Of a DNA stretch of 64,000 bases, positions 23,174 through 63,960 are shown piece after piece. This stretch comes from Mesostigma viride. Its lineage: Eukaryota; Streptophyta; Mesostigmatophyceae; Mesostigmatales; Mesostigmataceae. The first letter of the stretch is position 1; the number at the start of each line of letters is the position of its first letter. A program made the position numbers and the translations under genes. The notes under the pieces were generated by a model, which was not told the DNA's origin, did not search any database, and saw only the letters and a list, made by a program, of their open reading frames with translations. Where the stretch lies: contig RPFO01000406.1 of NCBI GenBank assembly GCA_009746045.1, forward strand, positions 3,283,701 to 3,347,700. Reading direction: 5' to 3'.

Positions 23174-25209
23174 TCAGTACAACCTGCCCCTGCATGTTGG
23201 AGCTTTGCAGAGGCAAGCGAGTTGCACCTCCATGTTGTTTCTTACGACCGAACCAGGGGTGTACTTGTAGTCCCAGACCAGCTCCTGATGGAAACAACAT
23301 TTGGAAAAAATCAGGATAAGTCATCACAGCCATGACATTTGGTCATTCAATAACAACAAACTCTTCATCCAATAAATACAAACAAGCAGGGAGGAAAAGA
23401 AAGAGAAAAAGAGGGGGGTGAAACAACCGTTGATGTACACTTATAGAAAACGACTTTAGTCCTTACACAACGCTGAAATGCCTTACGACCGGGAATAGTT
23501 GTCTCATTAAATTAAGAAAAAAACTCCATCCAGTTGTACATACTATTGAAAGACATTGGAAAATCGAGCTTGCCACACATACAGGCACAAAACCACCCAA
23601 AATAACTAAGGTTAAAGCTAAGGGTTTAGCATTAAACTTCAAGCACCCCAGCAACCTTATCAAGCATCTTTGGCCTTTTCATGCTATGGTGTTCTGTGCC
23701 TCAATGCTTGTGAATCACTACAAAAACCATCAAGTAGTCGAGTGCAATGCATTAAGCACAGACAACATCAGTGTTTCATAGCGCTACGTTGTCACGCATG
23801 TAAGGTAAAGGTACCATACCACCAGTACCACGTCAGCATGGCCATCACATTGCAACATCTGCATGGCCATCACATTTCCACGTCTGCATGGCCATCACGG
23901 TGCCCGCAGCCACACAGCGCCTGCCTACACCACTCACCTCCCCCGGCAGCACGTCGCGGCTGGCAAACAGCATGAGCTCGGCGAAGCGCGTGTCGTGGTG
24001 GTTGGAGAGCACCGCCTGGCGCCGCCGTAATGAGAGGGGGTTTGGCCACATGATGTGTGGTACATGTATGCACTATCCATACATGAGCAAAAGTCAGCGT
24101 TTGGTGTGGCAAACGGAAGTGGCATGGCCCCACACGAGACCAGAGGACGATCTATTTCCTCGTCACGCTGCTGGCAGTGCCAAAGGTCATCCACTTGATG
24201 GCATTGATGGCGACGGCCGACAGGACAAAAACGCGATTCCGTAACTGCATTGGGGCGACTGGATTCGTGGACATCTACCCATAGCCGGCTGGGGCGCCTT
24301 CTTCGAGCCAGTTGCTTGTGAAGGTATGAAATGAGCAGATAACCCATCAAGTGCACTGAATGACCCTGTGCTTATTGCACCTTCGCTGCTATAATAATGT
24401 TATTTTCCGGCTACAACGATGTTGCACTGCTACATTAGCGTTACTTCGCCGTTACAACAGTGTTATTTTGCTGCTACAACAGTGTTATTTTGCTATTACA
24501 ACAGTGTTATTTCGCTGTTACGATAGTGTTATTTCGCTGTTACAACTGTGTTATTTTGCGAGCATTTTGCTCCACTTCCATGTAATCTGTGCGACCATTC
24601 GAAAGCAAGATCACCTGGATTGCTCAACCCACCTGGATGATGCAGTTGGGCTCACAGCTGGAGGCCACCGAACCCACAACGTTGCGCACGAGAGCACGGC
24701 GATGACGCCGCCAACCACCCACGACGAGATCAGCCACACAGAAACAGGCGGAGTCACAATGAAACTTTGGATCAATGCGGTAGCTTGCTAGGCATACACC
24801 AACCAAGGTACGCGCAAGCAATGGCCCAGCAGACAGCAACGGGACGTGGCAGGGGCCATCGCACAGGACGAGCAGGGGAGGATGGCCCGATCATGTGCAA
24901 GGCATGCAGAGGGGGGGAGGGCAGGCATGAGGCTGCATGTTGTGCAAGCAGCCAAAATCCATGGAGAAAAAAGAATACAGATATGAATCACAGCACCCGC
25001 CAAAGCTGGGGTACCCCATCCGATGCATGAAGGAAAATATAAGCAATTCAAATCAACCAAGAAAAGATACCGTGGCCGCGCAAGCAGCAAAACACGCATC
25101 GCCCACCCGTGGCTGAGGACAGCCACACTCGCTAACCCCTAACCCCCTTAACCCCAAACCCCAACCCCAAACCCCCAACCCCCAACCCCAACCCCCACCC
25201 CCAACCCCC

Positions 25210-25262
<53 letters not shown>

Positions 25263-28200
25263 CCCCCTCCCCACAACCCCCAACCCCCAACCCCCATCCC
25301 CCCCCCCAACCCCACCCCCCACCCCCCACCCCCCACCCCCACCCCCACCCCCACCCCCCCACCCCCACCCCCCACCCCCACCCCACCCCACCCCCCACCC
25401 CCACCCCCACCCCCACCCCCACCCCCACCCCCCACCCCACCCCCACCCCCCCCACCCCCACCCCCACCCCTGACCCCTGACCCCTAACCCCTAACCCCCA
25501 ACCCCAGCCCCTAACCCCTATCCCACCCAGCCGTGGCTGAGGACAGCGCCCCCCCCATCCCTCACCCGTGGTTGAGGAAGCGGCCGATGTTGCCCACCGG
25601 ACCCGCGTCGATGGAAAACGGCTCCTCCTCCTGCCCGCCGTCACACGACGCGCCCGCGGCCTCGTGGCCCACAGCTGGTGGCTCCGACGGGTCGCCGTCC
25701 ACCCGCCGCTGCGTGCACGTGAGACGTCAATGAGCTTATCATAAGTCAGCTAAGAGATGTAATTGGTTAAGAAAATTCAATACCACTACATATGGAAGTG
25801 ACACCAGACCAAACAAAAACCATGTACCTAAGAAAAAGAAGCAACGCGGGGAGCCAAGGCTGTACAATGCCAGCAGAAGGAGCCGCCTCTAGCGAAACCG
25901 TGCGTGATCCCCCCCCCTCCTCACCCTGTCGATGTCGAGCAAGTACATGTCGTTGGTGAGCCGGTGCTGCTCCACCTGGAGGTCGTTCAGGATCTCGCCC
26001 GCGTAGTTGCAGATGAAGCTGACCAGGGGCCAGGTGGGAGGGGGGATTCGGCAATGCCAGAGTTGGATAAGAAGAACGATGCAATGGAATACCAGTCAGT
26101 AAGCCAGGCCATGGACTGCTTACAAGCTTCTACTCGCCACCCCATTCGACTCTACCTCGAACAAGTTATGCTTGTCCAACAAACAAAGCGGTTGTCACAA
26201 ATTGCGACAGGAGACGAAAACGTGGGGTGTGAAGGCCCCATGCACAAAATGCTTGGAAGGGACTGGCTGCTGGATATGCACCAGCCAATCCAGGCTGCAC
26301 ATGCAAGTGCTCAGGAGATCTCTTGCAAGTAAGGAAGCGCTTTCTCTGCACCAGGGCGTGCGCTACCCCCAACAGCGTGAAAGAGGTATGGGCCATTCTT
26401 GCGCACCTTCCAACAGGTATGAATGTCATGCACCGGACGCCCCATCCCTTGCCAACCGTCCGAAACACCTGCAGCCAAGCAGCCCAGAGGCCGGACCGAG
26501 CACAGCCAGCGCAAGCAAGCCGCGCGCATGGTGAGAAGCGGATGGGAGGACCGCCCTGTGTCCAGCCATGGCAGCCACACTTGCATCACAGCGCCTTCTC
26601 CAACAGTTCGTCTTTATCGTGCCTTCACCAGCCTTGCAAAGCACTACCTGGGAGATGAAAGGGCTCACTCTGCACCAGCCAGCCAAGGTCACTCCACAAG
26701 TTCAACGGCATTTAACCAACAGTGGTATTATCTTGCAGCAGGGTGGACATGCCATGCAAGGGTAGGTTAACATCAAGCGCATGCCTGTAAGCACGGGCTT
26801 GCTAAGGATCATGGAACAGGCAAGGCCGTTCTACTCGAGCGAAGAACGCTTTGCCTGCTCTTCTCTACGACATGCTCTGCCGCCCTTGTTTGTCTGCTAT
26901 ATGTGGCAGCCGTTGGGCACGAGGCCGATGTTAACCGCACGTTGGAACAACATCCAACTTGCACCCATGTGACACCCTATGCGAGTCCATGGACAAGTGA
27001 TAATGCACATCTGAAGTCATCAAACAAGTCCTAGTGTGTACACGCACTGGAGGCAGACACTATTGTCAAGCCCGCCACAGGTGGGCAACGGCATACACGG
27101 CACAAGTCTGCACAAGAACAGCTCCATTGGTTCGAATACCTCCCCTGCACGAATACCTCTCCCGCTAGGATAGCTGCGCATCGTCGCTGGGAACTTGGGT
27201 GAGCCGCATGACACAAGGTCGCCAAGGCCAGCACCGAATGGACGGTTTAAACAGGCACCGAATGGCGGCACGGTTGAAGAGGGCACTGCGTGGCGGCCTG
27301 TTTAAGAGGGCTCTGCATTGTGGACAGTCGGCAAGGGCCTACCAGGTACCATATGCAGGACCTGGGCACCGTTGGCCGACGACAAGGGGATCCGCATCCT
27401 ACAACGGCCCAAACCAGCGCCCACCTGCGGCCAGGAGCCTGTTACCTAAACGCTGGCCAGGGGAGTACCGCCACCAAGGGGCGGCGCACTATGATTGGAA
27501 GGCAACCCCTTTTACTTTACCTCCAGCGGGTAGTGTAGCCCCTTCTGGAGGACACGGTTTGGACAGGTTGGCGGGCACTTGCACTGGGCGCCACACTCGT
27601 AGAGGAAGTCGGTCATGAAGGTGAGGCTGGTGGCATCATGCGCCCGCAGGCACAGCAAGGCAGCGAGAAAACCCAGAACAAGTTAAGCCAATTACCATAG
27701 ATGTAAGTACTGCACACGGCGACAGACAGCAAACAACAGAACAAGCACTTGTTTGGCGGACGAGAGGCGGAACACGCTGCTTGCTTGCGGCAAGCCATCC
27801 GGGCCGATGTCTCGGTACCCAGAAGCCCAAACACCCATACTTTCCCATTCCTCCTTTCATTCATCCCTAACTCTCTTCTCCCCATCTAATCCAGCCCCAA
27901 GACTTCACACGACCACTCACCAGCAACTGCGAGGGTATCGCGGCTGCATGAACAGGCCGGTTCCCGATGGTGAGCAGTTGGGCCAACTAACTCTTGCATG
28001 GCACCCAGCCATCTGCTAACAATATCCAAGAACAATAACTGGTAACTGTAAATAATTCTAACCAGGCCTCTAGTATATTACATGAAGTGGCTCTCGTCGT
28101 CTTCCAGAAAAAAGCGCCCCATTCCGTGCATGCGCCACTCACAGGGGCGGCTTGTTGCCTCTCCGCACCCAGCCGTTGCCCTTGTTCCGTTTGACGCAGG

Positions 28201-31200: not shown

Positions 31201-34200
31201 AAGAGTGGGGAATACGGTGCAGCAAACCACTGAAGCAACGCCTGGAGCCTACCGGCACACGCAGCAGTGGTGCCTAGTGGCATTTAGCCCAAGTGCGGCA
31301 ACTGGCGCACGTCGCACAAGCATGCCATCGTACCCTCTGCGCCGACAGCTGGGGCTGCCCCTCCATGCGCGTCAAGTTGTAGCGGAACACGAGGAACCCG
31401 TGGCTGCCCCGCACTTGTTTATACGCCGTCACCTGCAGGGGCGGCCAGGGTGATGGCGGCGCCGCAATTTCTGTGGTGTTGTCATAACCGTGTCATAAGG
31501 GACAAGAGAAATGGAAGGCCAGGACTTGGGGGCTAGTTGTGCACGCACCCATCTACACCAGTTGGCTAATGAGTGGAGCGAAAGTCGCAAGGGGCAGCAG
31601 TTTCCAAAAATGAGAAGGTGGATGTGAGGGGAAATGCAAGGTGGGTGCGAGGGAAAACGCAACGTGAGTGCGTGGCCCAGATAGCGGGAAGGAGTGCAAG
31701 TCACCAGGGACACACACATATGCGCCGCAGGGTCTATAAATAAAAGCAGTGCAAAGGCCAGACGCAGGCGCCAACCGGATGCCAGCTGCCCCATTGCCAG
31801 CTGCCTCCTTGCCAGCTGCCTCCTTGCCAGGTGCCCAGCTGCCCAGCTGCCCAGCTGCCCAGCTGCCCCATTGCCAGCTGCCCAGCTGCCCAGCTGCTCA
31901 GCTGTCCAGCTGCCCAGCTGCCCAGCTGCCCAGCTGCCCAGCTGCCCAGCTGCCCAGCTGCCCAGCTGCCCAGCTGCCCAGCTGCCCAGCTGCCCAGCTG
32001 CCCAGCTGCCCAGCTGCCCAGCTGCCCAGCTGCCCAGCTGCCCAGCTGCCCAGCTGCCCAGCTGCCCAGCTGCCCAGCTGCCCAGCTGCCCAGCTGCCCA
32101 GCTGCCCAGCTGCCCAGATGCCCAGATGCCCAGATGCTGCTGCCCGGAAGTTAGTACGGTTTGCCACCAAGCCACAGAAGTGTGCCAACCGCGGCCATGG
32201 ACGCGGGATGCCTCCATCAACTTTACTCCAAACTTGTTGCCACCCAAGCATAAACAAGCAAACACCTCTCCCAATGCCGATGTGGCGGCCACATTGGCCA
32301 AGGCTCGCCATATCCCTATCTGGCTGTTTGCGACGATCCCGGAGCGAGTGTGCACTGGGGGGGGGGGTTGAGGGTCCGAACCCCCCCAAGCCCTGGTACA
32401 GGTTGAGGGGTAGGGGCGGGTTGAGACCCCGCCCCCCCTGCCCCCCTTCTGCAGTACTAGCAGGGTAAATAGGGGGGGGTCGGGGGGGGACACCCCCCCA
32501 CCCCCTGGTACAGGTTGAGCGGTAGGGGCGGGTTGAGACCCCTCCCCCCCCTTCGGGGGGTGGGGGGTGGGGGGGTGTTCTAACCCCCCCACCCACCCCC
32601 ACCCCTGCTCAGGGGGGGGAGGGGGGTAGTGGGCACTCGCTCCGGGATTGTCGCGAACGGCCAGCCATGTGCTGGCGTCCCTATGTGCTGGCGTCCCTGT
32701 GTGCTGGCATCCCAATGTGCTGGCGTCCCCCATGTGCTGGCGTCCCTACCCGATACAGGCCGTCATAGGTGAACACCCGCCCCGACATGGAGTTGTTGTC
32801 CTGGACGCCGCGGATGACGCGCACCGGCTGGCCCAGCTCCATGCTACCCTGCAGGGGCGCGGGGCAGGCCAGGTGTGCGCGGGGGAACGGCCGTTGGCGT
32901 GCAGGGGATGAGGTAAGTGAGAAACAACAAGTTGGGGAAACCAAGGGGGACACCAGAACCTCAAGGGAAGCCCTGTTCTGCAGGCGATCCAGACTGGAAC
33001 CTACGAAGGTGCATGTACGATGGCGCCCATACATGCGGTGGTGTCGATGGCCACAAAACAGTTCTCATCTCGCCACTGCCATGTCAACAGAGGTACCTAA
33101 GATCCCAAGACAGCCACGGCCGTGCACCGACAGACAGACAGGCATGCGGCCAAGATCCCGCATGATAGTTGCCTGAAAAACCAGCAGGCTCGTGCTGTCT
33201 TCAGGAGCTGTCTGCAACCAATGGCTCCGCAGGAGGGCAACACAGGCCGCGACCCCCAAAGCCGTGACCATCCCCCCACGCCCCTGCATCGCACCTTGAG
33301 CGCCAAGTTGCCCATCTTCATCGTCTGGTCCTTGCAGTGCTTGCCCGAGTTATCTGCACGCGCACACAGAACCAGCAGGGCACCCAAGAGGCAGGATGCA
33401 CTCAGCACACGCCACGACAGATGGCACGCAGGCGATAGGTCCCAGTCAGCCTGACCGGCAACAATGCGCAACCGTTGGTCCCAGGCAACCACATCCAGCC
33501 ACGCCACCAGGTCATGAAAAAGGGCCTCGTGCGCACCAGCGTAGCACAGGGCCATGAGCCCCAAGCACCCGGGGTGGAGCGCTGCACGCAGCATCGTGCA
33601 TGGTGGAACTTAGGATGGGCAGCAGGGTGAGGGAGAGCGAGGTATCTAGGAGTTTGCATTGCAAAGTGAATTTTGAGAAATATCTCAGCAACGTAGCATA
33701 GAATTTGACCATGGCACGCACGGCCGCGACCAGGTACCCAACCACGGTGCTCGCAGGACATTGTCTATGACCATTCCATCCATCCTCACGACTCCGACAT
33801 AGAAACTGGCACGCGCAGAGCTACAGAACTACCAAAGACGGGCAAACATGATAGCTGCAAGGGCACGATTGCGTCATAGCAAGCGCGTCGGCACCGCCAA
33901 CCCTCAGTGCCAGGACCTACCACCAGTCCACCTACTCTGCCCCCCTTGCCCCGTGCACACAACATCCACCTACTCTGCCCGCCTTGCCCAGTGCACACAA
34001 CATCCACCTACTCTGCCCGCCTTGCCCAGTGCACACAACATCCACCTACTCTGCCCGCCTTGCCCAGTGTACTCAATGTCGTGGCCGTCATCCTTGTCGT
34101 GGTAGCCGCCCGACATCACAATAGAGACCGCCACGGAGCGGTCAAGCCCGGATTCCTGTTGCGGCAGGCAGCACCGGCACAAGAAGATAGCAGGCCGTGG

Positions 34201-37200
34201 GTGGGGCAGTTGTCAGCAGGCTGTGGGTGGGGCAGGTGTAAGCAGCGGCCAGCTTGACCAATAGCACAGTAGAAAAATGTCATCACCCGAACGTAAGGTA
34301 GTTGCCAACGCAACAGATTTTTTAAAATGCAACAACAATTTTTTAACAATCATTCGACAATCAGATTGGCTGTCTGCATCAGCCCTACACAAATGAGATC
34401 TGTTACGATTTGCTAAAACAAGATTCTAAGATGTGGCAAAGTAGGCGGGCAGGAGGACATGACCGTCAGGAACATGATTGGTTGCAGTTCTGCATCCATG
34501 TAAGGGGCTAGAGGCACTGTCCTCTCGCGCACCAAGGTGCCATGCACCGATGCGCGCGTTGCTCCACCACAAGCATGCTTTCAACGGGTGGGAGGTGCGG
34601 CCCTGACCGTTGGGTTGAACATGTACAGCTGGCGGTGCAGCCCTAACCTGTGGGTTCATGTGACACAGACAGGGCTGAGCTGACCTTGCCGTTCACGCAG
34701 TACAGGTGGGCGCAGTGCTGACCTTTGGGTTCACGAAGTCGATGCCGTTAAACCAGTGGCCGTGGAGGCCGACAGCAACCATCTCGCAGCGCCACGAGAA
34801 CGACTCGCCAACGGGGATGCCTGCAGGGGGGGTTGGGGGGGTTCAGCCAGGCATGCACACATTGCGTGTGCCACGCGCTCAAGCACAGCTCGGTGCTTTC
34901 CCCACACTGCTGCCTCACGAAATCATCCCCTGCCTCCCTGCATGCCCCTACTCCCCCACCCCGTCCAATAAAAAATAACAGCATGCCGTGCCTATAGGGA
35001 TGCCAGCAGCGAGAACGACGGTCGCGTATCACAGAACAGGGACTGCAGCACGCACAGCACAGCACGCAAAACACCCGGTACACCCAAATGAGAGAAGGGA
35101 TGATGCACGTACGCCATGGGGACACTTGCTGCCGACCAACAGACAAACATGGCAATCGAATCATGAAGCAAAATTCGGCAATGGGCTGCCACAGCACCCA
35201 GTCCGCAACACCCCATCAAGTGCGGTTCGTGTCACCATCTAGCTGCATGCATCCGCAACACCCCATCAAGTGCGGTTCGTGTCACCATCTAGCTGCATGC
35301 ATCCGCAACACCCCATCAAGTGCGGTTCGTGTCACCATCTAGCTGCATGCATCCGCAACACCCCATCAAGCGCGGTTCGTGTCACCATCTAGCTGCATGC
35401 ATCCGCAACACCCCATCAAGTGCGGTTCGTGTCACCATCTAGCTGCATGCATCCGCAACACCCCATCAAGTGCGGTTCGTGTCACCATCTAGCTGCATGC
35501 ATCCGCAACACCCCATCAAGTGCGGTTCGTGTCACCATCTAGCTGCATGCATCCGCAACACCCCATCAAGTGCGGTTCGTGTCACCATCTAGCTGCATGC
35601 ATCGGAGTCAGGCACGTGCCGCGCTTGCGATATTGTACGGAACAAGCCTGCATGGCCATCCAGGGGTGCATATGGACGTCATGCACAGCTGGGCCGCAAG
35701 GACACCGCATGGTCAAGTGGCACACTGTTGCCTCAACAGCCAAGTGGCACTGCTTCGCATAAAGGCTACACGGGGCTGCGTGCAGGGCCACCGCCTGTTC
35801 GATACCTGGCACATGGCCGATGTGCTTGGCTTGGTTGATGACCAGCTTTTCATTCCTCATCTGCAGCCAAATGGGGAATGGGCGCAGACAGCAGGCACAC
35901 AGGCACACGCAGGTGCACAAAATGTGGGTGGCACTGTGTACACCCCAAAGGAAGGTCACGCGTGCCTTCTTCACCCTTCTAACGGCTGCCATCCCTGTCA
36001 GCCCCAGATAGGCCCCCTCCCCCCCCCCCCCCCCCCCTCCCCCGCCCCCCGGCCTAATTCCTGGCACACAACTCCACCAGGCGGATAACTGAGCTCGCTA
36101 GCAACAAAACTAGACACCATTGCCGATTCCGCCAAAGACTTGTCCGCTTGCACGAACGAGAGCTAAACACTCTACAATACACTCAACAATAAACTCTATA
36201 ATACACGCACACAAACACTCTATAGTAAACTAAGAAATGGGTTGGAAGAGAAACAACAAAGAGAGGAGGTTCATCTAGAGGGGCACAAACATTCGTGAGC
36301 TTCCCATTTATACTGCAAGGTAACTCCCTCACCTGCTCCAGGGTCCGCAGATCAGGCCGCTTTACAGAGAACTTTTTCAACTCAACCGCCACCTCCTTGC
36401 CCTTGCCCTTGCCCTTGCCCTTGCCCTTGCCCTTGCCCTTGCCCTTGCCCTTGGCCAGGGCCGCTTCCATCCTCTCCTGGTTCTCCCGGTTCACACGCTC
36501 CTCCTCCGTCTGCGCCCACCGTGCGAGGGCAGCCGTGCCACATGCCAAGTTTCCCAATGCCAGGGGTCAAGAGGATGCATACGTGCATGATATGCCACAA
36601 TCGCTACCCTGGACATAGGGTAGGTGATAATGGACCTACGGTAGGTGATAATGCTGAGATCTTGTTCGGCAGGAGTTGCTGCAAAGGTGGCAGAGAAGCC
36701 ACAGCACACCAAAGGAAATACGAGGCTTTGGCACCTCCAAACAGTAGGCCCATGCCAACGCCCCTCGACTGTGCAAGGCGGGGCACTGGCATATTCCCAC
36801 TAGCAGGCTGATTGGAAGCGCGACGCACGTGTGCCCATGAACAAACACTGTCAAAGTCTGCAAGGATCGAGAACTGCTCTTCTGCCAGGTGTTGAGAGGG
36901 TACAAGATGCCAGCACACCCATGACAGAACCACACGACCAACCCGGGTATTACACATTTACAAAACCAAGAGGCAGCCGCAGGCAGCGCAACTGGAAATA
37001 TCCGTCCTTCCTTGTCCTGGCGTTTGTGCCAGCGGGTCCTGCCGTGAAACAATTACCATGCGGCCCCTGAGAGTGAGGACCTCCCAATAAGGTGCCAAGG
37101 GCCATGCAGCAGTCATACATGATACAGGTAACGTGTACACAGGCAAGGTGTGGGGCTGACCCCAAGCGGAGAGGCAGGCAACCTTGGTGGCAGGCCACAC

Positions 37201-38908
37201 ACATCCCAAACTGACATCAGCCCCAAAACATGCTTCCAGGTGCAACGCAATGGTGCATGGGCCAACATGCACCCGTGAAGCACCGACAAGACAAGGCAGT
37301 CCCGTAAATTAATTACATATGAATGCGTTGTGTGTAGTGGCTCACCTATCATAGCAATGCTGTGGATGGAAACAGCCGCCTGCACATGCAGGGATTGGTA
37401 TGTTGATCAAAGAACGCGGCACCGCACGGTCGCTGCTACAGGCAGGGGCCGTCGCAACCCCTGCGTGCGCGTGCAAGCACCAGCCCAAAGAAGCGCTGAT
37501 GCTGCCTCTCCCCACCACATGAGCTTTGATGCCGCCTCTCATCATCACATAAGCTCTGATGCTGCCTCTCCCCACCACATCAGCTTTGATGCCCCCTCCC
37601 CCCACAACATCAGCTTTGATGCCCCCTCTCCCCACAACATAAGCTATGATGCTGCCTCTCCCCACCACATGAACTTTGATGCTGCCTCTCCCCGCCACAT
37701 AAGCTTTGATGCTGCCTCTCCCCACCACATAAGCTTTGATGCTGCCTCTCCTCACCACCTAAAAGCGCATATTTGCACTCACACACGAGCAGCAGGCATG
37801 CTTGCAATGGTACCTGTTTGATCACGAGCAGCAGGCGGCGCAGGCATGCTTGCAACTGTACCTGTTCGCTCACGAGCAGCAGGCGGCTGAATGTCTGCGA
37901 TGCCTTGAGGAAGGCACGACGCGCCGCCATTTCCGTCGCATGCCATTCCGCAACGGCCACATCCCCAGCATGTGCCGCGCTAGGGCCAGCAGGAAGCACC
38001 GCAGCCCAGGGGGCGTGCGTGGGCACGGGCTCAGCGATGGGCTCAGCGATGGCCATGTGGACGCCAGGTAAGGAGGCGGGCGGGGGCAGGGGGGGCATGG
38101 GCACGGCAGGTGTAGCGATGGCCATGGGCACGGCAGGTGTAGCGATGGCCATGGGCACGGCAGTGCGTGCGCACGTTGTTGTGCTCCCTAATGCCGCCGA
38201 GTCCACGGGTGGTGCGGTCGGGTCCTCCACAGGTGGCGCAATTGAGATTTGCACGTCCCCAGCGGCTGTCGGAGCGTCATTGTCCGACACCTCTATCCAG
38301 TCAGCAGCAGGCTCTGCCGAGTCGACATGTGGCGCGTTGTTGCCAACACAAAGCGGCTCTGGGTGTGGTGGCGGTCCATTATTGGCATGGGCGGGCGCTC
38401 CATCCCCCAACGAGGCATGATCTCCATCCGTAGTCATCAGTACGGCGGTCCCTGGAGAGTTCGAGCTGGGCCCAGCAGAGGAAGTTTCGGTCTCGTCCTG
38501 GGATTGACATACAACCTCCCAACCAGGGACCGCAGGGATGCCACCGTCGTCGTGCTGCGCAGATCTCCCTCGAGCTGCATTTTTCCTGCTTTTCTTGCGG
38601 CGGGAATTTGTAGGGGAGGTTTCGTCATCACCGATTCCCCGTTCAGTTATGGCTGGTGGACCAGCCTGGCGCCTTTTCGAGGCCCCGCGACCTCCATTTG
38701 TTTCCGTGCTTGCCCCCTGGATTGTAACTTTGGTCTCCCGGAAAGGAACTGGGGACACATCGGCTTCCTGCGACGGTAGTGGGGCAGCTTCTGCGCCATT
38801 CGGCACCGCTGGAGGTTTAGAAGCAGCGCCATCTCCAACATCACCCCGGTGGTCTGTCCCGTTCAACTCCGTTCCGGAGAACGTTTCTACTGTTTGCACG
38901 GCAGGCAT
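23174..38908 (-). CDS. SUVH: SUVH/KYP-type histone H3K9 methyltransferase with SRA domain
   Basis: Deduced from 18 exons: 38908-37862, 36509-36333, 35860-35806, 34820-34723, 34155-34050, 33353-33295, 32848-32750, 31432-31334, 30450-30149, 29380-29295, 28305-28143, 27626-27521, 26468-26407, 26018-25925, 25708-25566, 24657-24633, 24015-23938, 23284-23174. All introns are GT-AG and frame is kept, giving 969 aa. Residues 1-349 are disordered with an NLS-like RRKKSRKNAARGR; about 370-395 are Gly-Lys repeats. SRA (about 415-580) shows GLHGHWFNGIDFVN, SIVMSGGYHDKDDGHDIEYT, GNLAL, PVRVIRG and FTYDGLYR. An acidic/Lys linker follows. Pre-SET (about 682-795) has DIARGEENCPIPVYNDVDDE, GCGCTGGKCGKQCPC and DFLYECGAQCKC. 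SET has GKGWGVR, FICNYAGEIL, GNIGRFLNHGCEPN and ELVWDYKY. Post-SET is CLCKAPTCRGRLY. Such proteins bind methylated DNA through SRA and methylate H3K9 in heterochromatin. Odd points: NHGC instead of NHSC, W at the F/Y-switch position, and about 30 residues inserted before GNIGRF. ATG 38908 is the first in-frame Met after a stop. Confidence 0.93.
24385..24560. repeat. 22-bp tandem repeat in SUVH intron 16
   Basis: About eight degenerate units of the type ACAACAGTGTTATTTTGCTG. Confidence 0.75.
25085..25555. repeat. C-rich, telomere-like array in SUVH intron 15
   Basis: About 390 bp (25139-25530) of CCCCTAA, CCCCAA and CCCCCA units with a C run of about 50. The transcript strand is G-rich (GGGGTT, GGGGTTA type) and should form G-quadruplexes. 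Both edges carry CTGTCCTCAGCCACGG on the transcript strand, resembling the end of exon 15. Confidence 0.85.
28328..28626. mobile_element. MITE-like inverted-repeat element in SUVH intron 10
   Basis: The ends are inverted copies: GTACACCCCCC...CGTTTAAGATT on the left and its near complement on the right. Internal subterminal repeats read GATCTTAAACCTAAAAT in both orientations. It is about 299 bp and has no ORF. In the transcript it lies only about 20 nt upstream of the exon 11 acceptor. No clear target duplication is visible. Confidence 0.65.
29772..29963. repeat. 48-bp minisatellite, 4 copies, SUVH intron 9
   Basis: Four nearly identical 48-bp units, each containing GCACGAGCACCGCTCGGACA, at 29772, 29820, 29868 and 29916. 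Confidence 0.9.
30820..30870 (+). repeat. Dispersed short repeat shared with 18430-18495
   Basis: The block TTTCTTTATAGTGAGATGG with its flanks occurs here in SUVH intron 8 and inverted at about 18440-18495 in the LINE-rich region. It is a small dispersed element of unknown class. Confidence 0.5.
31785..32135. repeat. 8-bp CAGCTGCC array in SUVH intron 7
   Basis: About 35-40 units of CCCAGCTG, with a few variant units at the left end. CAGCTG is self-complementary, so single strands can fold. Open frames across it are repeat artefacts. Confidence 0.95.
32340..32640. repeat. G/C-run and hairpin region in SUVH intron 7
   Basis: Runs of 7-9 G or C alternate, and a block containing CCTGGTACAGGTTGAG is repeated at about 32391 and 32503. 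Several short G-run/C-run stems can form. Confidence 0.7.
32665..32749 (-). repeat. 16-17 bp repeat starting at the SUVH exon 7 splice donor
   Basis: Directly after exon 7 the intron reads GTAGGGACGCCAGCACAT and then four more degenerate copies of the same unit. Confidence 0.85.
33935..34068 (-). repeat. 38-bp repeat spanning the SUVH exon 5 splice donor
   Basis: The last bases of exon 5 (GGGCAAGGCGGGCAGA), the donor GTAGGT and the next bases are tandemly repeated about three more times in the intron with a period of 38 bp. Each copy keeps the donor sequence. Confidence 0.85.
35204..35603. repeat. 50-bp minisatellite, 8 copies, SUVH intron 3
   Basis: Eight almost identical 50-bp units containing CCGCAACACCCCATCAAG. 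There are no spacers, so this is not a CRISPR array. Confidence 0.95.
37497..37757. repeat. 30-bp minisatellite, about 9 copies, SUVH intron 1
   Basis: Units of the type GATGCTGCCTCTCCCCACCA followed by CATAAGCTTT, with point variants. Confidence 0.9.
37778..37885 (-). repeat. 48-bp duplication across the SUVH exon 1 splice donor
   Basis: The end of exon 1 with its donor (TGCTGCTCGTGAGCGAACAG, then GTACAG) is followed 48 bp on by a copy (GTGATCAAACAG, then GTACCA) and a third partial copy. Confidence 0.85.
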
Positions 38909-47500: not shown

Positions 47501-47775
47501 CCCTGGCGGCCATCTGCGAAAAAAAAAGCCGTTTGTCACTTAAGTCAAGGGGTATCACAAGTCAAAACGAGCAGTAGACTGTCGTGGATCTCGCAAAGGG
47601 TCGTATATGCAGCAAAACACAAACAACATACGGTCGAAGCCAAACTAGCGGATTGGAAAAACAGACACAATTTATTTCAGTGATTGAACCCGCATGCCGA
47701 GGATACGTTGTTGTTGGCATCTTCGAGCGTAGGCCTCGGAGCCTGGGGTTTCGCCGTACCGAATAATCTCCTCAT
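41556..47775 (-). CDS. VPS60: ESCRT-III subunit VPS60/CHMP5
   Basis: Seven exons: 47775-47707, 47513-47362, 46862-46769, 46048-45977, 43484-43373, 42865-42714, 41591-41556. All introns are GT-AG and frame is kept throughout, giving 228 aa (human CHMP5 is about 219). It starts MRRLFGTAKPQAPRPTLED, the typical basic N-terminus. The Snf7 core follows with KINKLDAQLAQYRDQLKK, ALGVLKQKRL, YEGQREQLYNQQFNLEQ, KEMKKAQKALNIDTIE and SLQDQMADLVDYGNEIQD. An acidic helix YGVPDDIDEDELMGELDAL comes next, then a Pro/Ala-rich linker, and the C-terminal hallmark VDEFGLPRLPS sits alone on the last 36-bp exon. In other eukaryotes VPS60 acts late in ESCRT-III with LIP5/VTA1 and VPS4 in multivesicular body sorting. 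The intron after exon 4 is filled by a 75-bp minisatellite, and the last intron carries a Helitron-like repeat. Confidence 0.95.
42037..42137. repeat. Short CAAGCTA-type repeat in the last VPS60 intron
   Basis: About eight degenerate 12-bp units of the form TGTCAAGCTAAC. Confidence 0.7.
42222..42459 (+). mobile_element. Helitron-like non-autonomous repeat, copy 3 (decayed)
   Basis: Starts TCAATGAGACAACC after an A, then repeats a second AACCAGCGC start, and follows copies 1 and 2 with many substitutions and a deletion near the end. It lies in the last VPS60 intron, opposite to the gene. Confidence 0.4.
43838..45966. repeat. 75-bp minisatellite, about 28 copies, VPS60 intron 4
   Basis: Highly homogeneous units containing CACGAGCAACCGTGCTGGCA. 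One unit near 44790 is 74 bp. The array starts at the exon 4 donor on the transcript strand: GAG, GTGGGTGC, then TTTGTGGATGCCAGCACGG. Every unit contains a similar GAGGTGGATGG. As 75 is divisible by three, most frames on both strands stay open, so the long ORFs here are artefacts. Confidence 0.97.
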
Positions 47776-54800: not shown

Positions 54801-57800
54801 ATGCTGGTGCAACTGCCGAGGCAGGGGATGGCGGTGGGCTGGCGTCCAACGGTCCCTTGGCCACGCAAGACGTCTCGGACAGCCGTGGCGCTGACGACAG
54901 TAATCTAGATGCAGGTGATGTTGTGGCGCGCGGCAGCAGTGAGGGTGCAGGTGCAGTGCCAGCCGCAGCAGCGGCAGCGGCCAGCCCTGCCAATACCCCT
55001 ATTGACCTGGGAGCGGTGGCAGCGGCGGTGGGTGGTGTCCCTGGGGGTGCTTTGGTGGCGCCAGACAGCAGTGCGGGCGAAGTGGCAGCGCTGCGCGAGA
55101 TGCTGGACAAGGCGGCCAAGCACATGGCGTGGAAGGAGGAGCAGATCTGCCAGCTGCGTGAGATGAATGAGACGCTGCTGGCTGACATCGAGACGATGCG
55201 CGACAATGTGCGTGGATAATTGGGTTGATAGATAGATTGCTAGATGGGCACAAGGGTGGGGTGTAGTGAGGCTTGTGGGGCATGTAGGGGGGCACTTGGA
55301 ATGGGTAGGTTGAGGAATGCCAGGCAGACAATGCGCTGCTGGCCGACATCTAGACGATGCGCCACAGAGTGCGTGGATAGTCGTGTTGATTGATAGGTTG
55401 ATAGATGGGCACAAGGGTGGGGTGTAGTGAGGCTTGTGAGGCATGTGGGGGGGTACTTGGAATGGGTAGGTTGAGGAATGCCAGGCAGACAATGCGCTGC
55501 TGGCCGACATTGAGATGATGTCGGAACTTTTGCTTTGGTCTAGACAGGCATCGATGCAGGCACAGCGGGCGTATCACCGTTCGCTAGAAATGCGCTGGTG
55601 GGTGACGTGCTGGTCAGGTGGATAGTGGCAGTTGGGAGATATTGTAGCAGCTTATAGGCTGGCATTGATCCGCTTAGGGGATGAGGGGGGGCTGTGAGAG
55701 GCAACTAGGCATTAGCACTAGGCTCTGGCTGGAGGTGGCGACACAAGGCGCTACGATGGTTTTTGCTGCCCTATGCATGGTCTGCATGCTAGACCCTTCC
55801 ATCATATCCTCATGGCTGAATGGCTCCTCGTGGCTCCCTTTGTGGCTCCTCGGTCATCCCCTGTGTGGCATCGCACGCGGGTGTCCGCACATGGCACGCT
55901 GCACTGTGCTTGCCTGGCCTCTTTACACCCCTTCCATCATATCCTCATGGCTGAATGGCTCCTCGTGGCTCCCTTTGTGGCTCCTCGGTCATCCCCTGTG
56001 TGGCATCGCACGCGGGTGTCCGCACATGGCACGCTGCACTGTGCTTGCCTGGCCTCTTTACACCCTTCCATCATATCCTCATGGCTGAATGGCTCCTCGT
56101 GGCTCCCTTTGTGGCTCCTCGGTCATCCCCTGTGTGGCATCGCACGCGGGTGTCCGCACATGGCACGCTGCACTGTGCTTGCCTGGCCTCTTTACACCCC
56201 TTCCATCATATCCTCATGGCTGAATGGCTCCTCGTGGCTCCCTTTGTGGCTCCTCGGTCATCCCCTGTGTGGCATCGCACGCGGGTGTCCGCACATGGCA
56301 CGCTGCACTGTGCTTGCCTGGCCTCTTTACACCCCTTCCATCATATCCTCATGGCTGAATGGCTCCTCGTGGCTCCCTTTGTGGCTCCTCGGTCATCCCC
56401 TGTGTGGCATCGCACGCGGGTGTCCGCACATGGCACGCTGCACTGTGCTTGCCTGGCCTCTTTACACCCCTTCCATCATATCCTCATGGCTGAATGGCTC
56501 CTCGTGGCTCCCTTTGTGGCTCCTCGGTCATCCCCTGTGTGGCATCGCACGCGGGTGTCCGCACATGGCACGCTGCACTGTGCTTGCCTGGCCTCTTTAC
56601 ACCCCTTCCATCATATCCTCATGGCTGAATGGCTCCTCGTGGCTCCCTTTGTGGCTCCTCGGTCATCCCCTGTGTGGCATCGCACGCGGGTGTCCGCACA
56701 TGGCACGCTGCACTGTGCTTGCCTGGCCTCTTTACACCCCTTCCCCCCCCCCCCCCCCCCGATGCCGGTTGCCAGAACAAGCGCCAGACGGCGGCGGAGA
56801 TGGACGCGCTGCGCGAGGAGTTCTCCACACGGCTGGGGGCTGCGGAACGGAAGGTGAGCCGTTGTGTTTGTTCGCATGCGCACGGTGAGGTTGGGTCGCC
56901 ATAGTGTTGGTTCACGAGCGCAGCGTGGGGCGTTCAGTGTGACCTGTTGAGGAGCGCAAAATGCGGTGGTTGGATTTGTTCACGTGCGCTACTGGCGTTG
57001 GTGGTTGGTCTGACGCGTGCGCACGGTGAGGGTGGGCCGCGATAGTGTTGGTTCACGAGCGCAGCGTGGGGCGTTCAGTGTGACCTGTTGAGGAGCGCAA
57101 AATGCGGTGGTTGGATTTGTTCACGTGCGCTACTGGCGTTGGTGGTTGGTCTGACGCGTGCGCACGGTGAGGGTGGCTGCTATACTAATACTTGATGTGC
57201 CTGCGTGGGCCATGTGCCATGCTGCCGTACCCAGCCATGGATCCACTGGGCAGCAGCAGCACCTCGTGATGGATAGGAACACCCTGTACAAGGTTGCAGG
57301 AACGTCCTCCAGGGTCGCGTGGCTGCAGGGTAGGCATGCAGGTGGGGTATGCCCATGCTGCCACACAAGGGCGGGACAAAAGAGCAGCCGTCTGTCATGC
57401 AGAGCCGCCGGCAGGTCTGCCGTATTTGTGGATTGCAATGCCACCGTTGCTGCATCCATTTGACCCCAACCTAGCATCCACAGTAGTGCACTGCCTGCTT
57501 TAAAATGCTTCATGGTATGCAACTTCTGGGTTTACAAAGGGAGGACGTACTTTCTTGTTCCCTTGAATTTGGGCACCCGTGCGCGAGCCACCCTCTTGCA
57601 ACCCCTTTCCCCCACCCCAATCGCTGTGCCGGGTATCTAATGCTCCCCCCCTGCCCACCCCACCCCCCATGCTGATTTGCTTATGCGTGGTGTGGCCCCA
57701 GATTTATGCGCTGACCAAGGAGCGCGACTTGCTCAAGCGGGAGAACAGCCGCAAGAGCGACACAGCGACGCTGGTCAAGGAGAAGGACGAGATCATCAAG

Positions 57801-60800
57801 CAGGTCATGGCCGAAGGTGGGTGCAGGGAAATGACGAGATCATCAAGCAGGTCATGACTGAAGGTGGGGGTGCGCCACCATGCCGTCAACCTGCTAGCAT
57901 AGTGCCCACCCTCCTGGCTCAATATACCTGCTTCATTCTGGGTCTTCTTTGTTGATCACAATTTGTTTTTGCAACACGAACTTGCTCTGTAATACTGCTG
58001 TCTTCCTTGACATACATAATAGGCCAGGGTTAGTTTTGCAGGATGATGGCTTTCTTGACATGGAAAATGGTTTATCATGGCACAACGATGGCACCATACT
58101 CATGCCTTGTCGTAGCATACTGCGGGAGGTGTGTACAGCCCCTTGTCCTCGTGTGCGCTGACCAACGGGTGCACAACTTGTGCTATATGTTTCTCACGGG
58201 CCATTTTTACCGCAGGGGAGGAGCTGTCCAAGAAGCAGGCAGCGCAGGTGGTGCTTATCAAGAAGCTGCGGTCACAGGTGAGCCAACACCCAGCAGCCGT
58301 GAGGTGGCTTGGTGCCCGGCGGTCACCATGTGACTGTTAGGGTGTGCTGCTCACAGCGGCTTGTCACCGCCAGCGGCTTATCGTTGTGAAAAGGTGGCCT
58401 CGTAGTATGCAGGGGCTTGCAGTTTGGGCGTTGACACTTCTTGCCCCCCCGCCACCCCTTGTATGTATTGATAACTGTTAGTAACCAGATAAGTGGGGTC
58501 AAGCATATTTTAGTATGAACACCACCCCTTGTATGTATTGATAACTGTTCGTAACCAGATAAGTGGGGTCAAGCATATGTTAGTATGAACATACTTCGGG
58601 TCAGCTTACATGCAATGAAATCAAATATTGTCATACCCATCCGACCCTGCCCTGATGGCCCCAACCACCGGATGATACGCCGCATCTCCCCCCATTGATC
58701 AGCTCGCATCGGCGCATCCTGCCACCCCACATGCCGGCGCCTTTGTTTTTCGTTGAGGTATTTCTCTGGGGCAGGCTCACTCTGCTTAGTCGGCGATGGA
58801 CAATAGGCGGCGTCAGTGTGTCACCTAATCACCCTTCCTAATGCTTTCACCCCATGTGTGCCATGCACTTATGTCAGTTATGCTGTGTCTCCCTGAGTCC
58901 CTGACGTGCCCTTCCATCGGATGCTGACTGGTGGCTGCTGGCACCTCTCCTCCCCCCCCCTCCTGTGCCTCTTGCCTGGCCCACTTTGCACAGATCAAGG
59001 AGCTTGAGACAGAGAAGGAGAAACTGCTGGCCAAGCTGCAGGTAGGGTGATGGAAGCACGCAAGCACATGCATGGGGTGGCGCTCCATGGAGAGGTTGGG
59101 TGAACCAATTTTGGTGCCCCCTTGCTGGCAACGTTTTGAGCAGACCGGCACATTCCGGATCCAGTGACAGCAGATGGTATCCAAGTCAAGCCTTGTGATG
59201 CCGTCTGACTAGCACTGTATGATTGCCGGACCGCAGATTGGTCAGTTCTGGCTCCAAATCTTGTCTGATGGGCTTATGTCATCGTCGCTCTCGTTCCCAC
59301 ACCTCTCAAAGCTTATGTTCTGTCGTGTGGCTGATGTGTTTACTTGCCTACTTGTGGTGATATAGGGACGCTGGATTGGCTCTTTTCGCTGTACATACAA
59401 CTTATGTTTTTGCTTGCCTGCTTGCTTGCTTTTGTGCTCGCTGGCTAACTCACTCGCTCGGTTGCTTGCGTGCCTGTGCGCGCTTCCCCCGCAGATTGAG
59501 GAGGGCCGCGTGGAGAGCATCAAAGCGGACAAGGCCAAGACGGAGCGCGACCTGGCGTCGGCGACTGAGTCCCACACGCGCGCGGTGGCGGAATTGAAGG
59601 AGTACTACGCGCAGGCGCTGGCGCAGGCGCGCGACGTGGTGGCGGCCGCGGAGGCTCGCGCGGACACGGAGGCGCGTTCCGAGATGGAGCGCTGGCTCAA
59701 GGAGAGCGCGGCGCGGGAGAAGGCGCTCGCCCTCAGCGTGGAGGAGCTGCGCGACACGCTGCACCGCACCGAGGAGCAGGTGGGGTAGAGCGCTGCAGTG
59801 TACTGAGGGGCAGGCACTGGGCAGGCATGGGGTAGTTGCACCAAGGTTCAGTCGGGGTAGATGGATCTGCCTCATGCGTGGATGGCATTGGGGGGCAGGT
59901 AGGGATTGAAGGAGCAGACGGGATGACGTCATGGGCTGGTCGCTGCATGGGATGCATGTGCATAGGGGCAGGTAGGGTTTTTGTGAACGCGGCAAAGGGT
60001 TGGGGGGGAGAACACGTGGGCCAGGCTATGTGGTACAGGGACAGTTCGTAAGTCACTGAGTGGGAAACAAAACATAATCTGGCCATCCGAGTGGCCCATG
60101 GCTGGCGCTGTTCTGGGGCTGCCACAACTATCACCACTGCAGCGACATCGTGGAATGTGGTGATTTTTTGTTTTAGGGACCTGCAGTTTGTTGTTGACTT
60201 GGTTGAATTGGTCCTCCATTGCCCCAGTCGCCTTGCACACTATGCCGCGTGACGTTTGACCTATCGACGCCCTCTGCCTTTCTCCCCCGTAGGCTGTGGC
60301 CTATCGCATGGCCATGCACATCTACTGAATGGCGTGGTTCTGCGTGTGGTACCAAGTGTGTGTGTGTGTGTGCGTGCGTGCGTGCGCGCGCGCGCGCCCG
60401 CGTGTGCGTGTGCGCCCTGGCAAGTGTGGTTGTGTGTGAAGAGATGTCATCTCTGGTGCGTGCAAATGGCATGTGTTGGTGAGGTGTGACATGCGACGCA
60501 GGCATTTGTCTGTATGCGACGCAGGAGATGATGCGATTTGACGAGTGTACAGTATGCTTGTGCGTGCACGTGTGGGTGATGTGTGGCAGGCGGCGTACAA
60601 GGAGGAGCTGATGCGGCGCGACCTGGAGGACATGGAGAAGAGGTGCCAGGTACGGCTGCCAGTAAATAGCCAACACTTGCCCCAAGTACAACCAGAGGAG
60701 TAGGCAACAAGGGCCAGGTATGCCCACATAGAAACAGGCAAGAGCTGGCCAGGTAGATGAGCATGCGAACATGCGACAAGTGCCTGGTACGCCCGCATCA

Positions 60801-63800
60801 GTACAGGGCTTGTGCTGGGGAGAGCAGCATATGGGCAGGGAGGAAAAGTTTCCGTCGCAATCCCATGAGCATACCTCGGTGCAGGTCTGCATGTCTTGGC
60901 ATCCAGCGGATGTCCAGTGGCCTGCATGGGAAGATGGAAGGGAAGGCACCACAATCCTGTGGCAAGGGGGGCTGGGGTTTGGCGTTGACTTTGGGCCTTT
61001 GGCTGCAATAGTTGGAAGATTGGCGATGGGCGAGACAAGCATCGGCTGGTGGCCCAGATGAGATGGTATGGCGGCTTGTACTTGGACGAAGCCTTTTGTT
61101 TGTGTCAGACCATGTGCCTTTGACAGACCTAGCGGCGAAGAGCTGACGCCATGTGCTCAGCCATGCAAACCAGTTTCTGTGGCAGAGGGGAATGGGTCAA
61201 CAACTTGGTCAACATGCACCCTCTGTCATCCGGAGTTAAAGCGGAGTAGCCTAAGGTTGATTGAAACTGGACATCAACACGCCGTTATGGCCTACGTTTC
61301 GTGGTTGTGCTGTGTGCATTCTTGCGCTGCTGTTCCCCGCCACCATGTGCACCTCCCATGCTGGGACCCTCACTCCTTACTGCACCGTTGTCCTCGGCCT
61401 TCCTCGCGCCTTTGCCCACGCTTTTTTCCCACGCGTGTCCTCCCCTTGCCCTTGCTTTCTGCCCGCGCTACTTCCCCCTCTTACCCGCCCCGTTCCCCTC
61501 GCCTTTGCCCGCACTGTTTGCCAACGCTAATTCCCCCTCGTGCCCTTGCCCATGCCCCCTCTCTCCCCCCTCTCTCCCCCCTCTTGCCCTCACCTGTCCC
61601 ACTCCCCTCCTCCCTCCCCCAGATGGCGGAGCAGCGCCACGAGGAGCTGGCCTCCCGCGTTCCGGACGCCACACGGCCGCTGCTGCGCCAGATCGAGGCG
61701 ATGCAGGCCTCGTACGCGATGCGGGCCGAGGCATGGAGCGGGGCGGAGAGGGCGCTCACCATGCGCCTGCAGGTGGGGGGCAGGGGGCAGGCAACGCATC
61801 ATACACAGGACGGCGCGCATCACCACGTGTCAGTTCATCCCCTTATACCTGGAACCGTATCCTGCACGACATGCATGGGGCATATCACCCTGTGGCTCCT
61901 CTTCCTCGATAGGACTCCTCTAGCTTGCCTATGATTTGGCACTGGCATTTGCAACGTTCCTGCACCGCAGGCGGGGGCTTTCAGGTCATTGGGCATGCGG
62001 GGAGGGAAGTTCCTTACGACTCACCATGCAAATCCAGTCCCTTGCGTTGTGACATACACAGCCCACTGCCATGCCTCATGATGCACACGAACCCACTGCC
62101 TGTTGCGTTGCGTTACCCGGCTCCATCCCATCAGGTCCGCGTTTGCACCAACACCTTACAGTCTGTCATCCCTTTCACTTCTTTCACGGAACATGCATCG
62201 TTGGCCATCAGTCGCCACCCACCGCCCTGCTCAGGACCCCACAATGCCACCCCACCCCCACATGGCGATGAACCCACCACACAAGTCACCCACACACACC
62301 CCATTGCCACTCACCACCGCCCCAAAGCCGTCACGTTGTGCTGCTGCCTCCCACTCCCATCCACCCACCCACCCCCCGCCCGCCCGCCCGCCCGCCCGCC
62401 CGCCCACCCGCCCACCCACCCGCCCGCCCGCCCGCCTGCCCGCCCGCCCGCCCACCCACCCACCCACCCACCCACCCACCCACCCACCCACCCACCCACC
62501 CACCCACCCACCCACCCACCCACCCACCCACCCACCCACCCACCCACCCACCCACCCACCCACCCACCCACCCACCCACCCACCCACCCACCCACCCGCC
62601 CACCCACCCCCAATCGCCACACCACAACCAACCCGCCCACCCACCTCACTTCCCCCCACTGCGCAGGAGGCGGAGCGCGAGGCGTCGGCGGCGGGCGAGC
62701 GCGAGCGCGTGGTGCAGGAGCGCGTTTCCCAGATGGTCGCGCGCCTCGCTGTCATGGAGGCGGAGGTGGGTGGTGCCGTGGGGTAGGTTGTTTCGGTGAT
62801 GGAGGCGGAGGTGGGTGGTGGCAGCAGCGGTGGTGCAGGTGGGTTCGTTGCATGTGGCATGGCGGAAGGAGTAGATTGTTGCATGCCTAGATTTCCAACA
62901 GCAAGGTCAACAGCGTAGGAGCCTGCACATTGCCCGGCCGAGGAGGGTGGCGCACCGAGGTGGGAGCCGTTGCCTGCTTGGGGTGGCGTGGTGGGAGAAA
63001 GGAAGGCAGATTCGCAAGGTGCATAGCACAAGGCACGCGGAGGGGCATGCTAGCTGCTGCAGCCGCGTTCAGCCAACCTAAGCGAAGCGGCTGTGATGCC
63101 CGGCCAGTATGCGCAAGGAGTAAAGGGAGCTGGATCGGGAGATACGATGGCTTTCATTGGGCTGCTGGCCGATGCACCCAAATGGCTGGTTTCTTGCCAT
63201 TTGTCCTCGACTCGTCATGTGTACAATGCCCTCATTTTCTGCTCGGCCGGCAACCATGTTACCATGGCCCCCACCGGTTCCCTGCCGCTGCGGTTGGTTC
63301 CCCACTCACATGGTTGTTCCCCACTTGCGCGTTTGCAACCATCCATGGCCTCTTGGCCGGCCACACCATCCTTCGACGCACACTCTTGGCCACACCATCC
63401 TTCGACGCACACTCTTGCGCAAGTGCTAAACACCCGTATCCCCTGCCCCCCTGCCCCCCTGCCCCCCTGCCCCCCTGCCCCCCTGCCCCCCTGCCCCCCT
63501 GCCCCCGTGCCCCCCTGCCCCCTGCCCCCCACGATAACACTACACACACCACCCGATTTCACACGCGCACATGCACGTACCCACACCCACATGCAAATAC
63601 ACATACCTCTGATCCCCCGTCCCCTCTCCCCACCCACCCCCTACAAACCGCCCCCACCCCGCAGATGTCGATGCTGCAGCGTGAGCGCGAGCAGCTGGCC
63701 AAGTCGCTGGAGAAGGAGCGTGCGCGGGCGGCTGAGGCGCGCGCCGAGTACCTGCTGGCGGTGGAGAGCGCCGCCACCGAGCACGGCAAGGTGGAGGCGC

Positions 63801-63883
63801 TGGAGACGGAGGGGCGGGACAAGTTCTCAAAGCTCAAGCAGCAACTGGCCGATGAGCGCGCCAAGCGGGAGGGGCTGGAGAAG
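48825..63883 (+). CDS. TMF/GC5: TMF/GC5-type golgin, 5' part; gene continues past the window
   Basis: Eleven exons, all GT-AG and in frame: 48825-48918, 51075-55207, 56776-56853, 57702-57816, 58216-58277, 58994-59041, 59495-59779, 60590-60649, 61623-61772, 62667-62765, 63665-63883. They give 1781 codons. The start MAWFGAISGKFSQNM matches the N-terminus of plant GC5. Exon 2 (1377 codons) is acidic and low-complexity, with Lys-Val blocks (KKKLLVKKVVAKGG) and repeated Trp-acidic motifs (GWEDAGWEVD, DGWEDNGWDV, DGWDSWEDRDEVD). From about residue 1380 on it is coiled coil with family blocks: YALTKERDLLKREN, VKEKDEIIKQVMAEGEELSK, KQAAQVVLIKKLRSQ, ARSEMERWLKE, PDATRPLLRQIEAMQ and LAKSLEKERARAAEARAEYL. 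TMF golgins are long Golgi tethers on the cytosolic face that bind Rab6-type GTPases. The last 100-200 residues, with the C-terminal Rab-binding TMF domain, lie beyond the window. The exon 2 region is far longer than in plants. Confidence 0.94.
48919..50190. other. First part of TMF intron 1
   Basis: No further exon is required: exon 1 ends in phase 1 and exon 2 completes the Gly codon. Small ORFs here show no family resemblance. Confidence 0.6.
50193..50661. repeat. 36-bp minisatellite, 13 copies, TMF intron 1
   Basis: Thirteen nearly perfect units containing GCGGTTCTATTACCATGATA. There are no spacers. All frames are open because the unit is divisible by three. Confidence 0.97.
55173..55530 (+). 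repeat. 161-bp duplication of the TMF exon 2 end and donor
   Basis: The last bases of exon 2 (GCTGCTGGCTGACATCGAGA...) with the donor GTGCGTGGATA recur at 55334 and, more decayed, at 55495, each with about 120 bp of the following intron. The copies have substitutions and stops. Confidence 0.9.
55797..56760. repeat. 135-bp tandem repeat, 7 copies, TMF intron 2
   Basis: Seven almost identical units (one is 134 bp) starting TTCCATCATATCCTCATGGC. They end in a C run of 18-19 just before the exon 3 acceptor. Confidence 0.97.
56878..57172. repeat. 141-bp duplication after TMF exon 3
   Basis: Two copies plus a partial third, each starting GCGCACGGTGAGG, at 56878, 57019 and 57160. The first begins 25 bp after the exon 3 donor GGTGAGC. 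Confidence 0.9.
57786..57872 (+). repeat. 47-bp duplication of the TMF exon 4 end and donor
   Basis: GACGAGATCATCAAGCAGGT... through the donor GTGGGTG is repeated once in the intron at 57833, ending ACTGAAG then GTGGGGG. Confidence 0.92.
58451..58601. repeat. 75-bp direct duplication in TMF intron 5
   Basis: Two copies of a unit containing TTGTATGTATTGATAACTGT, differing at a few bases. Confidence 0.9.
60355..60418. repeat. TG/CG alternating tract in TMF intron 7
   Basis: Pure alternating purine-pyrimidine sequence (TGTG, then TGCG, then a CGCG core), a typical Z-DNA-forming tract. Confidence 0.85.
62355..62635. repeat. CCCA/CCCG tetranucleotide array in TMF intron 9
   Basis: About 65 units of CCCA with CCCG variants at the left end. 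The complementary strand is a GGGT array able to form G-quadruplexes. Confidence 0.95.
62754..62823 (+). repeat. 45-bp duplication of the TMF exon 10 end and donor
   Basis: ATGGAGGCGGAG with the donor GTGGGTGGTG recurs exactly 45 bp downstream at 62799. Confidence 0.9.
63436..63535. repeat. CCCCCCTG array in TMF intron 10
   Basis: About 12 units of 8 bp with a few variants, shortly before the exon 11 acceptor. Confidence 0.93.
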
Positions 63884-63960
63884 GTGAGTGCGAGGGGCTG
63901 GAGAAGGGGTGTACGGGGGCTGGAGAATGGGGTTCAGATGGGCTGGAGGGGGGAGAAGGA
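63868..63960 (+). repeat. GAGGGGCTGGAGAAGG repeats across the TMF exon 11 donor
   Basis: The exon end GGGGCTGGAGAAG followed by GTGAGTGC is repeated three more times in the intron, increasingly degenerate. Confidence 0.85.

Follow-up and report, generated by a model that had tools for sequence, protein, structure and literature searches.

Segments spanning 5′ splice sites are recurrently copied into introns of Mesostigma viride, whereas 3′ splice sites are rarely spanned

We analysed the introns of the streptophyte alga Mesostigma viride in a 64,000-nucleotide stretch of its genome (the window; positions 3,283,701 to 3,347,700 of contig RPFO01000406.1, here C1435, in the 440-Mb assembly GCA_009746045.1 of 2243 contigs) and in a sample of other loci of the same assembly. 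A segment crossing the 5′ splice site (donor) had been copied into the intron at 21 of 102 donors, in contrast to 3 of 102 3′ splice sites (acceptors), with both spanned in 1 intron; a site was counted as spanned when a direct match with a score of at least 14 ran across it. Introns in which only one end was spanned numbered 20 for the donor and 2 for the acceptor (sign test, p=1.2e-4); counted by cluster, donor-spanning stood against acceptor-spanning at 12 versus 3. Recent duplications are about as dense at donors as in intron interiors and almost absent from acceptors. The asymmetry is probably due to tandem duplication that acts throughout introns, crosses donors harmlessly and is mostly purged at acceptors.

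The window holds three genes, TMF, SUVH and VPS60, whose identities had been proposed in an earlier note on this DNA and were borne out by their Pfam domains (TMF_TATA_bd and TMF_DNA_bd; SAD_SRA, Pre-SET and SET; and Snf7, respectively). The genes of the assembly are G+C-rich and intron-rich. Exon borders in the window were set from reading frame, splice consensus and protein continuity. Elsewhere, kinesin motor exons were found by a profile search of the contigs (129 matches), and introns were taken between neighbouring matches, their borders being resolved by a supervised gene finder that was trained on the window genes and gave a strong bonus to profile matches. The first kinesin batch (34 introns, 20 loci) was picked for neighbouring profile positions and retained in full, including 2 introns, at locus L034, where two introns were predicted between matches; of 19 introns predicted in the second batch, we added the 4 that were the single intron between two neighbouring matches and left out the other 15 as ambiguous. 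Gene-finder models in the 200 kb adjoining the window supplied 34 more introns; none of these was longer than 3 kb, and in each both flanking exons scored at least 9, measured at least 40 bp and were not of low complexity. Together with TMF intron 10, the 67 homology-supported and 34 gene-finder introns make up the 102, which fall into 37 loci treated as clusters (L029 and L030 lie in one gene region, as do L031 and L032; gene-finder introns were binned by 15 kb).

In the homology-supported set the donor was spanned in 15 and the acceptor in 3 of the 67 introns, the donors being distributed as 10/34 in the first kinesin batch, 0/4 in the second and 5/29 in the window; the gene-finder set gave 5/34 donors and 0/34 acceptors, and the donor of TMF intron 10 was also spanned. 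We also aligned a probe of 30 exon and 10 intron bases to the next 600 bases of each of the 29 window introns, with its mirror image as the acceptor counterpart and a cut-off score of at least 12. Donors came out ahead in this test, which the earlier note had proposed, at 6/29 versus 0/29. Donor probes set against other introns reached the cut-off in 0.7% of 564 trials, and random 40-mers from the interior of window introns in 17.8% of 580; the rate at window donors is therefore far above chance, yet close to that of the intron interior. No donor edge matched the introns of other loci in a chimera control (0/970). Copying across donors is thus largely real and not local to the window. The copies might in principle stem from faulty gene models, chance similarity or misassembly, given that borders rest on predicted gene models and that the window genes themselves had served to train the gene finder, but with the chimera control empty, with kinesin borders resting on a Pfam profile and not on the gene finder alone, and with one array repeated in a paralogue (see below), we consider this extremely improbable.

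The window cases illustrate the range of the copies. In TMF (forward strand), the exon end at 55207 and its donor (AAT/GTGCGT, the slash marking the exon border) lie in a 161-bp tandem array of about 2.2 copies (55173–55520). At the donor after 57816 (GAAG/GTGGGT), 34 exon bases and the intron start were copied 47 bp downstream (57783–57868), and at that after 62765 (GAG/GTGGGT), positions −15 to +10 were copied 45 bp downstream with 96% identity (62751–62820). An array of units of about 23 bp crosses the donor after 63883 (AAG/GTGAGT; 63869–63948); this intron runs out of the window, and the case comes in addition to the six probe-positive donors. The copies that had been described at TMF exons 2, 4, 10 and 11 were accordingly all recovered, as was that at SUVH exon 5. 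The latter is a 38-bp unit present in about 4 copies (33927–34076, reverse strand, as are all SUVH cases), with the exon end at 34050 inside the first unit; we placed this end at CAGA/GTAGGT because the next exon then continues in frame. Two further SUVH donors had been missed: diverged copies of about 38 bp accompany the one after 34723 (CCAAAG/GTCAGC; 34640–34740), and diverged copies at +22 and +446 the one after 25566 (CACGG/GTGAGG; 25097–25578). Between the +22 and +446 copies lies a G-rich, telomere-like array of about 390 bp (25134–25518).

The copies are direct repeats: in the 67 homology-supported introns we counted 504 direct and 4 inverted matches, an imbalance that speaks against insertion of templated copies in random orientation. 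They lie mostly tens to about 200 bp apart. Some form complete tandem arrays with the exon end in the first unit, such as those in intron 2 of kinesin locus L027 (83–88 bp unit, 4 clear copies) and intron 2 of kinesin locus L022 (70 bp unit, 3 copies), while others are single older copies. The exon part of the unit was 8–38 nt long, on average 0.28 of the unit, and its length was not distributed uniformly (Kolmogorov–Smirnov p=0.0002 for all 15 units, p=0.003 for the 12 shorter than 200 bp). In 10 of the 13 introns with several copies, no other copy matched the exon better than the one nearest the donor, and farther copies were usually more diverged; that neighbours are most alike is also usual in ordinary arrays. 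Introns with donor-spanning copies were longer (median 899 versus 573 nt, 67 introns, p=0.0496). These observations, with the 21 of 102 donors, support the view that the process recurs in many genes and creates spare donors and intron length, and the copies extend introns that already existed.

The earlier note had linked these copies to the established model of intron gain by tandem duplication of a segment containing AGGT. If this (Rogers) model, in which such a duplication in an exon creates introns, applied here, the copies would be remnants of intron birth. The model is established elsewhere (PMC3443670, PMC2891723, PMC4974935), and introns do grow by duplication here. The geometry it predicts, however, is lacking: the upstream exon end matched the 3′ end of the intron in 0/63 introns at a score of 10, and the mirror test of exon start against intron start gave 1/63. 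Nor do the data support AGGT as the driver, as 6 of the 15 donors with copies lack AG/GT, and its frequency is no different with a copy (9/15) and without one (31/52). Intron birth is therefore a very improbable source of the copies.

The copied donors could also be functional, as decoy or alternative 5′ splice sites retained to regulate expression or to vary the protein. In the best-matching copies the donor averages 8.8 bits, against 9.3 for the true one, among matches that were pre-selected to include the donor and from which a complexity filter wrongly discarded long ones; in addition, one array is common to two paralogues, L022 and L050. Unit lengths, however, are spread over the three frames (4/7/4 for length modulo 3), with no preference for multiples of 3, so that splicing at a copied donor would in most cases shift the frame. 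Distant copies are usually more diverged, and 81 of 102 donors have no copy at all. Retention for function is accordingly very unlikely to account for the pattern.

We compared the donor with the rest of the intron by the coverage of bases with repeats in the 102 introns. Coverage was 0.196 within 10 bases of the donor, 0.143 in intron interiors, 0.040 at acceptors and 0.003–0.020 in exon interiors; 10–30 bases upstream of acceptors it was 0.010 (67 introns). For recent copies, at least 93% identical, it was 0.106, 0.097 and 0.013 at donors, interiors and acceptors, respectively. In a cluster bootstrap, donors differed from acceptors (p=0.0008), and from interiors when copies of all ages were counted (p=0.046), but not when recent ones were (p=0.37). 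Without the complexity filter, a 40-mer had a copy within about 300 bases at 20/63 donors, 70/305 mid-intron points and 5/63 acceptors. The ratio of copied length to distance was alike for 27 donor-crossing and 79 interior pairs (p=0.94; pairs less than 30 bp apart were excluded, gapped extension being meaningless at distances below about 20 bp). Similar copies are thus not equally frequent at acceptors, but in the intron interior they nearly are, and the donor does not stand out as a special target.

These data bear on the possibility of a mutational hotspot at the donor, where stalled transcription, R-loops or an AGGT bias, for instance, would cause exon end and donor to be duplicated preferentially. 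A hotspot would agree with the higher all-age coverage at donors and with the position of the most exon-like copy next to the donor in most multi-copy introns. It would also lead one to expect an excess of recent copies, which is absent; AG/GT is not enriched at copied donors, and donor-crossing and interior pairs look alike. We regard a hotspot as unlikely. By subtraction, coverage with older copies was 0.090 at donors and 0.046 in interiors, a ratio near 2, and confinement of the donor excess to older copies would be expected if the exon member of such a pair hardly changes.

We therefore favour tandem duplication throughout the intron, followed by selection. Introns would turn over by local tandem duplication in direct orientation, perhaps through slippage or unequal exchange, by a process insensitive to the 5′ splice site. 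A unit straddling the donor would copy the exon end and the donor downstream into the intron; as the copy nearest the exon stays the first donor made, such units would be tolerated, and provided that splicing uses the most upstream donor, the mRNA would be unchanged and the copies silent. A unit straddling the acceptor would instead give the intron a spare acceptor ahead of the true one and so would mostly be purged by selection, while a unit within an exon would change the protein and mostly meet the same fate. Later rounds of duplication and homogenisation may then build arrays with real exon sequence in the first unit. With their exon side under coding constraint, older donor-spanning copies would remain recognisable for about twice the time of intron-internal ones. 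Long exon overhangs may be removed too, since a copy carrying one would make a better exon end. Reed and Maniatis (1986), who duplicated splice sites in test-tube experiments, reportedly found that exon sequence and proximity govern the choice of site; this fits the limit on overhang, but by the same finding proximity can favour an inner donor.

Several observations weigh against this explanation. The looser 40-mer test weakens the asymmetry, with 15/34 kinesin donors and 6/34 kinesin acceptors scoring at least 12, and three acceptor-spanning cases do occur under the stricter test; the earlier statement that acceptors show no such pattern thus holds in the window (0/29) but not in the genome sample. 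None of the 4 introns kept from the second kinesin batch has a donor copy, and the 15 dropped from it held one donor-spanning case (L049) and one acceptor-spanning case (L050), the latter locus also having a copied exon end at a donor that was probably misplaced. When copies of all ages are counted, donors have somewhat more coverage than interiors, as given above, and this may reflect a mild donor bias. Finally, the introns of the window genes are richer in repeats in their 5′ half than in their 3′ half, which tolerance alone does not explain.

The paralogous kinesin genes L022 and L050 allowed us to follow one array between genes. They have in common the 70-bp, three-copy, donor-spanning array in the same register. 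Within the respective gene, copies one and two are separated by 0/70 and 4/70 differences, and between genes by 9–11/70; the third copies are less clear. In the exon part the two genes differ by one base, and that difference is common to all three copies of each. The arrays have thus undergone concerted evolution that includes coding sequence, in this one pair.

Three cases described earlier in the window proved to be of another kind or in part unsupported. At the SUVH donor after 32750 (exon 7; 32667–32750, reverse strand), a 16–17-bp array begins at +1 to +3 and merely abuts the donor; the exon bases are not copied. Likewise, the VPS60 array proposed as a further case at exon 4, with 28 units of 75 bp (43838–45977, reverse strand), abuts the donor after 45977, but similarity begins at +10 and no exon copy is present. 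The 48-bp duplication placed at SUVH exon 1 (37792–37887, reverse strand) exists, but homology gave no support for an exon border at this place; the 48-bp length is divisible by 3, and the duplication lies within a single open frame.

Some other repeats lie near acceptors. Two arrays close to TMF acceptors, at 62356–62645 and 63440–63530, are pyrimidine-rich ((CCCA)n and CCCCTGCC), and the first stops 21 bases before the TMF exon, as if repeats were tolerated near acceptors when they serve as the pyrimidine tract. Kinesin introns of L028 and L029 contain old copies of the exon start with the upstream AG intact, 409 and 223 bases before the true acceptor; the copied exon start presumably corresponds to the P-loop motif, which it resembles. 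These copies may be acceptor-spanning duplications that have decayed, or exons once used alternatively. In the window, positions 19457–22313 hold LINE-like remnants by the look of their translations (a long open reading frame on the reverse strand and reverse-transcriptase-like fragments on the forward strand), and Rfam gave no match at the gathering threshold. Contig C622 (L033, L051) repeats part of contig C2 with 99.95% identity, with two single-base gaps outside the donor-spanning copies; it is probably an assembly duplicate.

The closest known system is that of the amphioxus 'mirages', minisatellite-like tandem repeats across exon–intron boundaries of the Adh3 and globin genes, whose arrays are unstable in length, with copy-number polymorphism, somatic instability, concerted evolution of their units and, as RT-PCR (reverse transcription PCR) suggests, normal splicing (PMC3087553). 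Mirages and the present copies are alike in that units contain the exon edge and the splice site, evolve in concert and diverge in the terminal copies; unit lengths are 10–160 bp there and 23–161 bp for the clear arrays here (PMC3087553). Near-tandem copies holding both exon edge and splice site were found here at the 21 donors and 3 acceptors (as arrays in TMF, SUVH, L022 and L027), and concerted evolution with the terminal copies excluded in the L022/L050 pair. Mirages are described from a few cephalochordate genes and on both the donor and the acceptor side (PMC3087553), whereas here about one-fifth of the sampled introns are affected, with a donor bias; the novelty lies in this bias and in the high frequency.

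Other systems are more distant. Reports on ATP2A1 and the potato RdRp describe local tandem duplication involving splice signals (PMC4974935), as is the case here, but our copies lie inside existing introns, imply no new intron and lack the AGGT geometry. For the [D] stwintrons of Lipomyces, duplication of a functional donor in an existing intron has similarly been proposed; there, only a few donor bases are duplicated and an internal intron is created (PMC7138796), whereas the units here are longer and carry 8–38 exon bases. Introner elements of Micromonas and Amoebophrya likewise tie repeats to intron borders in algae and protists, but they are described as dispersed families, with inverted repeats in Amoebophrya (PMC7789003), in contrast to the local and direct copies here. 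Inverted matches were as rare as noted above and matches at other loci absent (0/970), no genome-wide search for a repeat family having been run. Among the open-access matches listed, the titles and abstract beginnings contained no report of donor-spanning intron repeats in an alga or plant.

These copies have consequences for annotation and for the study of splice-site choice. Copied exon ends within introns can mislead gene finders, as apparently happened at L050, where the gene finder seems to have placed the donor inside the repeated part of the donor-spanning array. Should splicing always take the most upstream of several identical donors, the introns of Mesostigma would offer a ready-made test of donor competition, with unit length and overhang varying by chance. 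It is possible, and we offer it tentatively, that perhaps one in five introns carries at least two near-identical donors of graded exon overhang, of which the first is consistently taken, order of transcription and exon context prevailing over the sequence of the site; permeability of the donor might then act as a ratchet lengthening introns from the 5′ end, and gene conversion might pass changes between exon ends and their intronic copies. Relatives of Chlamydomonas have conspicuously long introns, and the mechanism behind this length is considered likely to be ancient (PMC8226300). The asymmetry described here would provide a concrete cause for long introns, as duplications survive inside the intron and at its donor end, and rarely at the acceptor.

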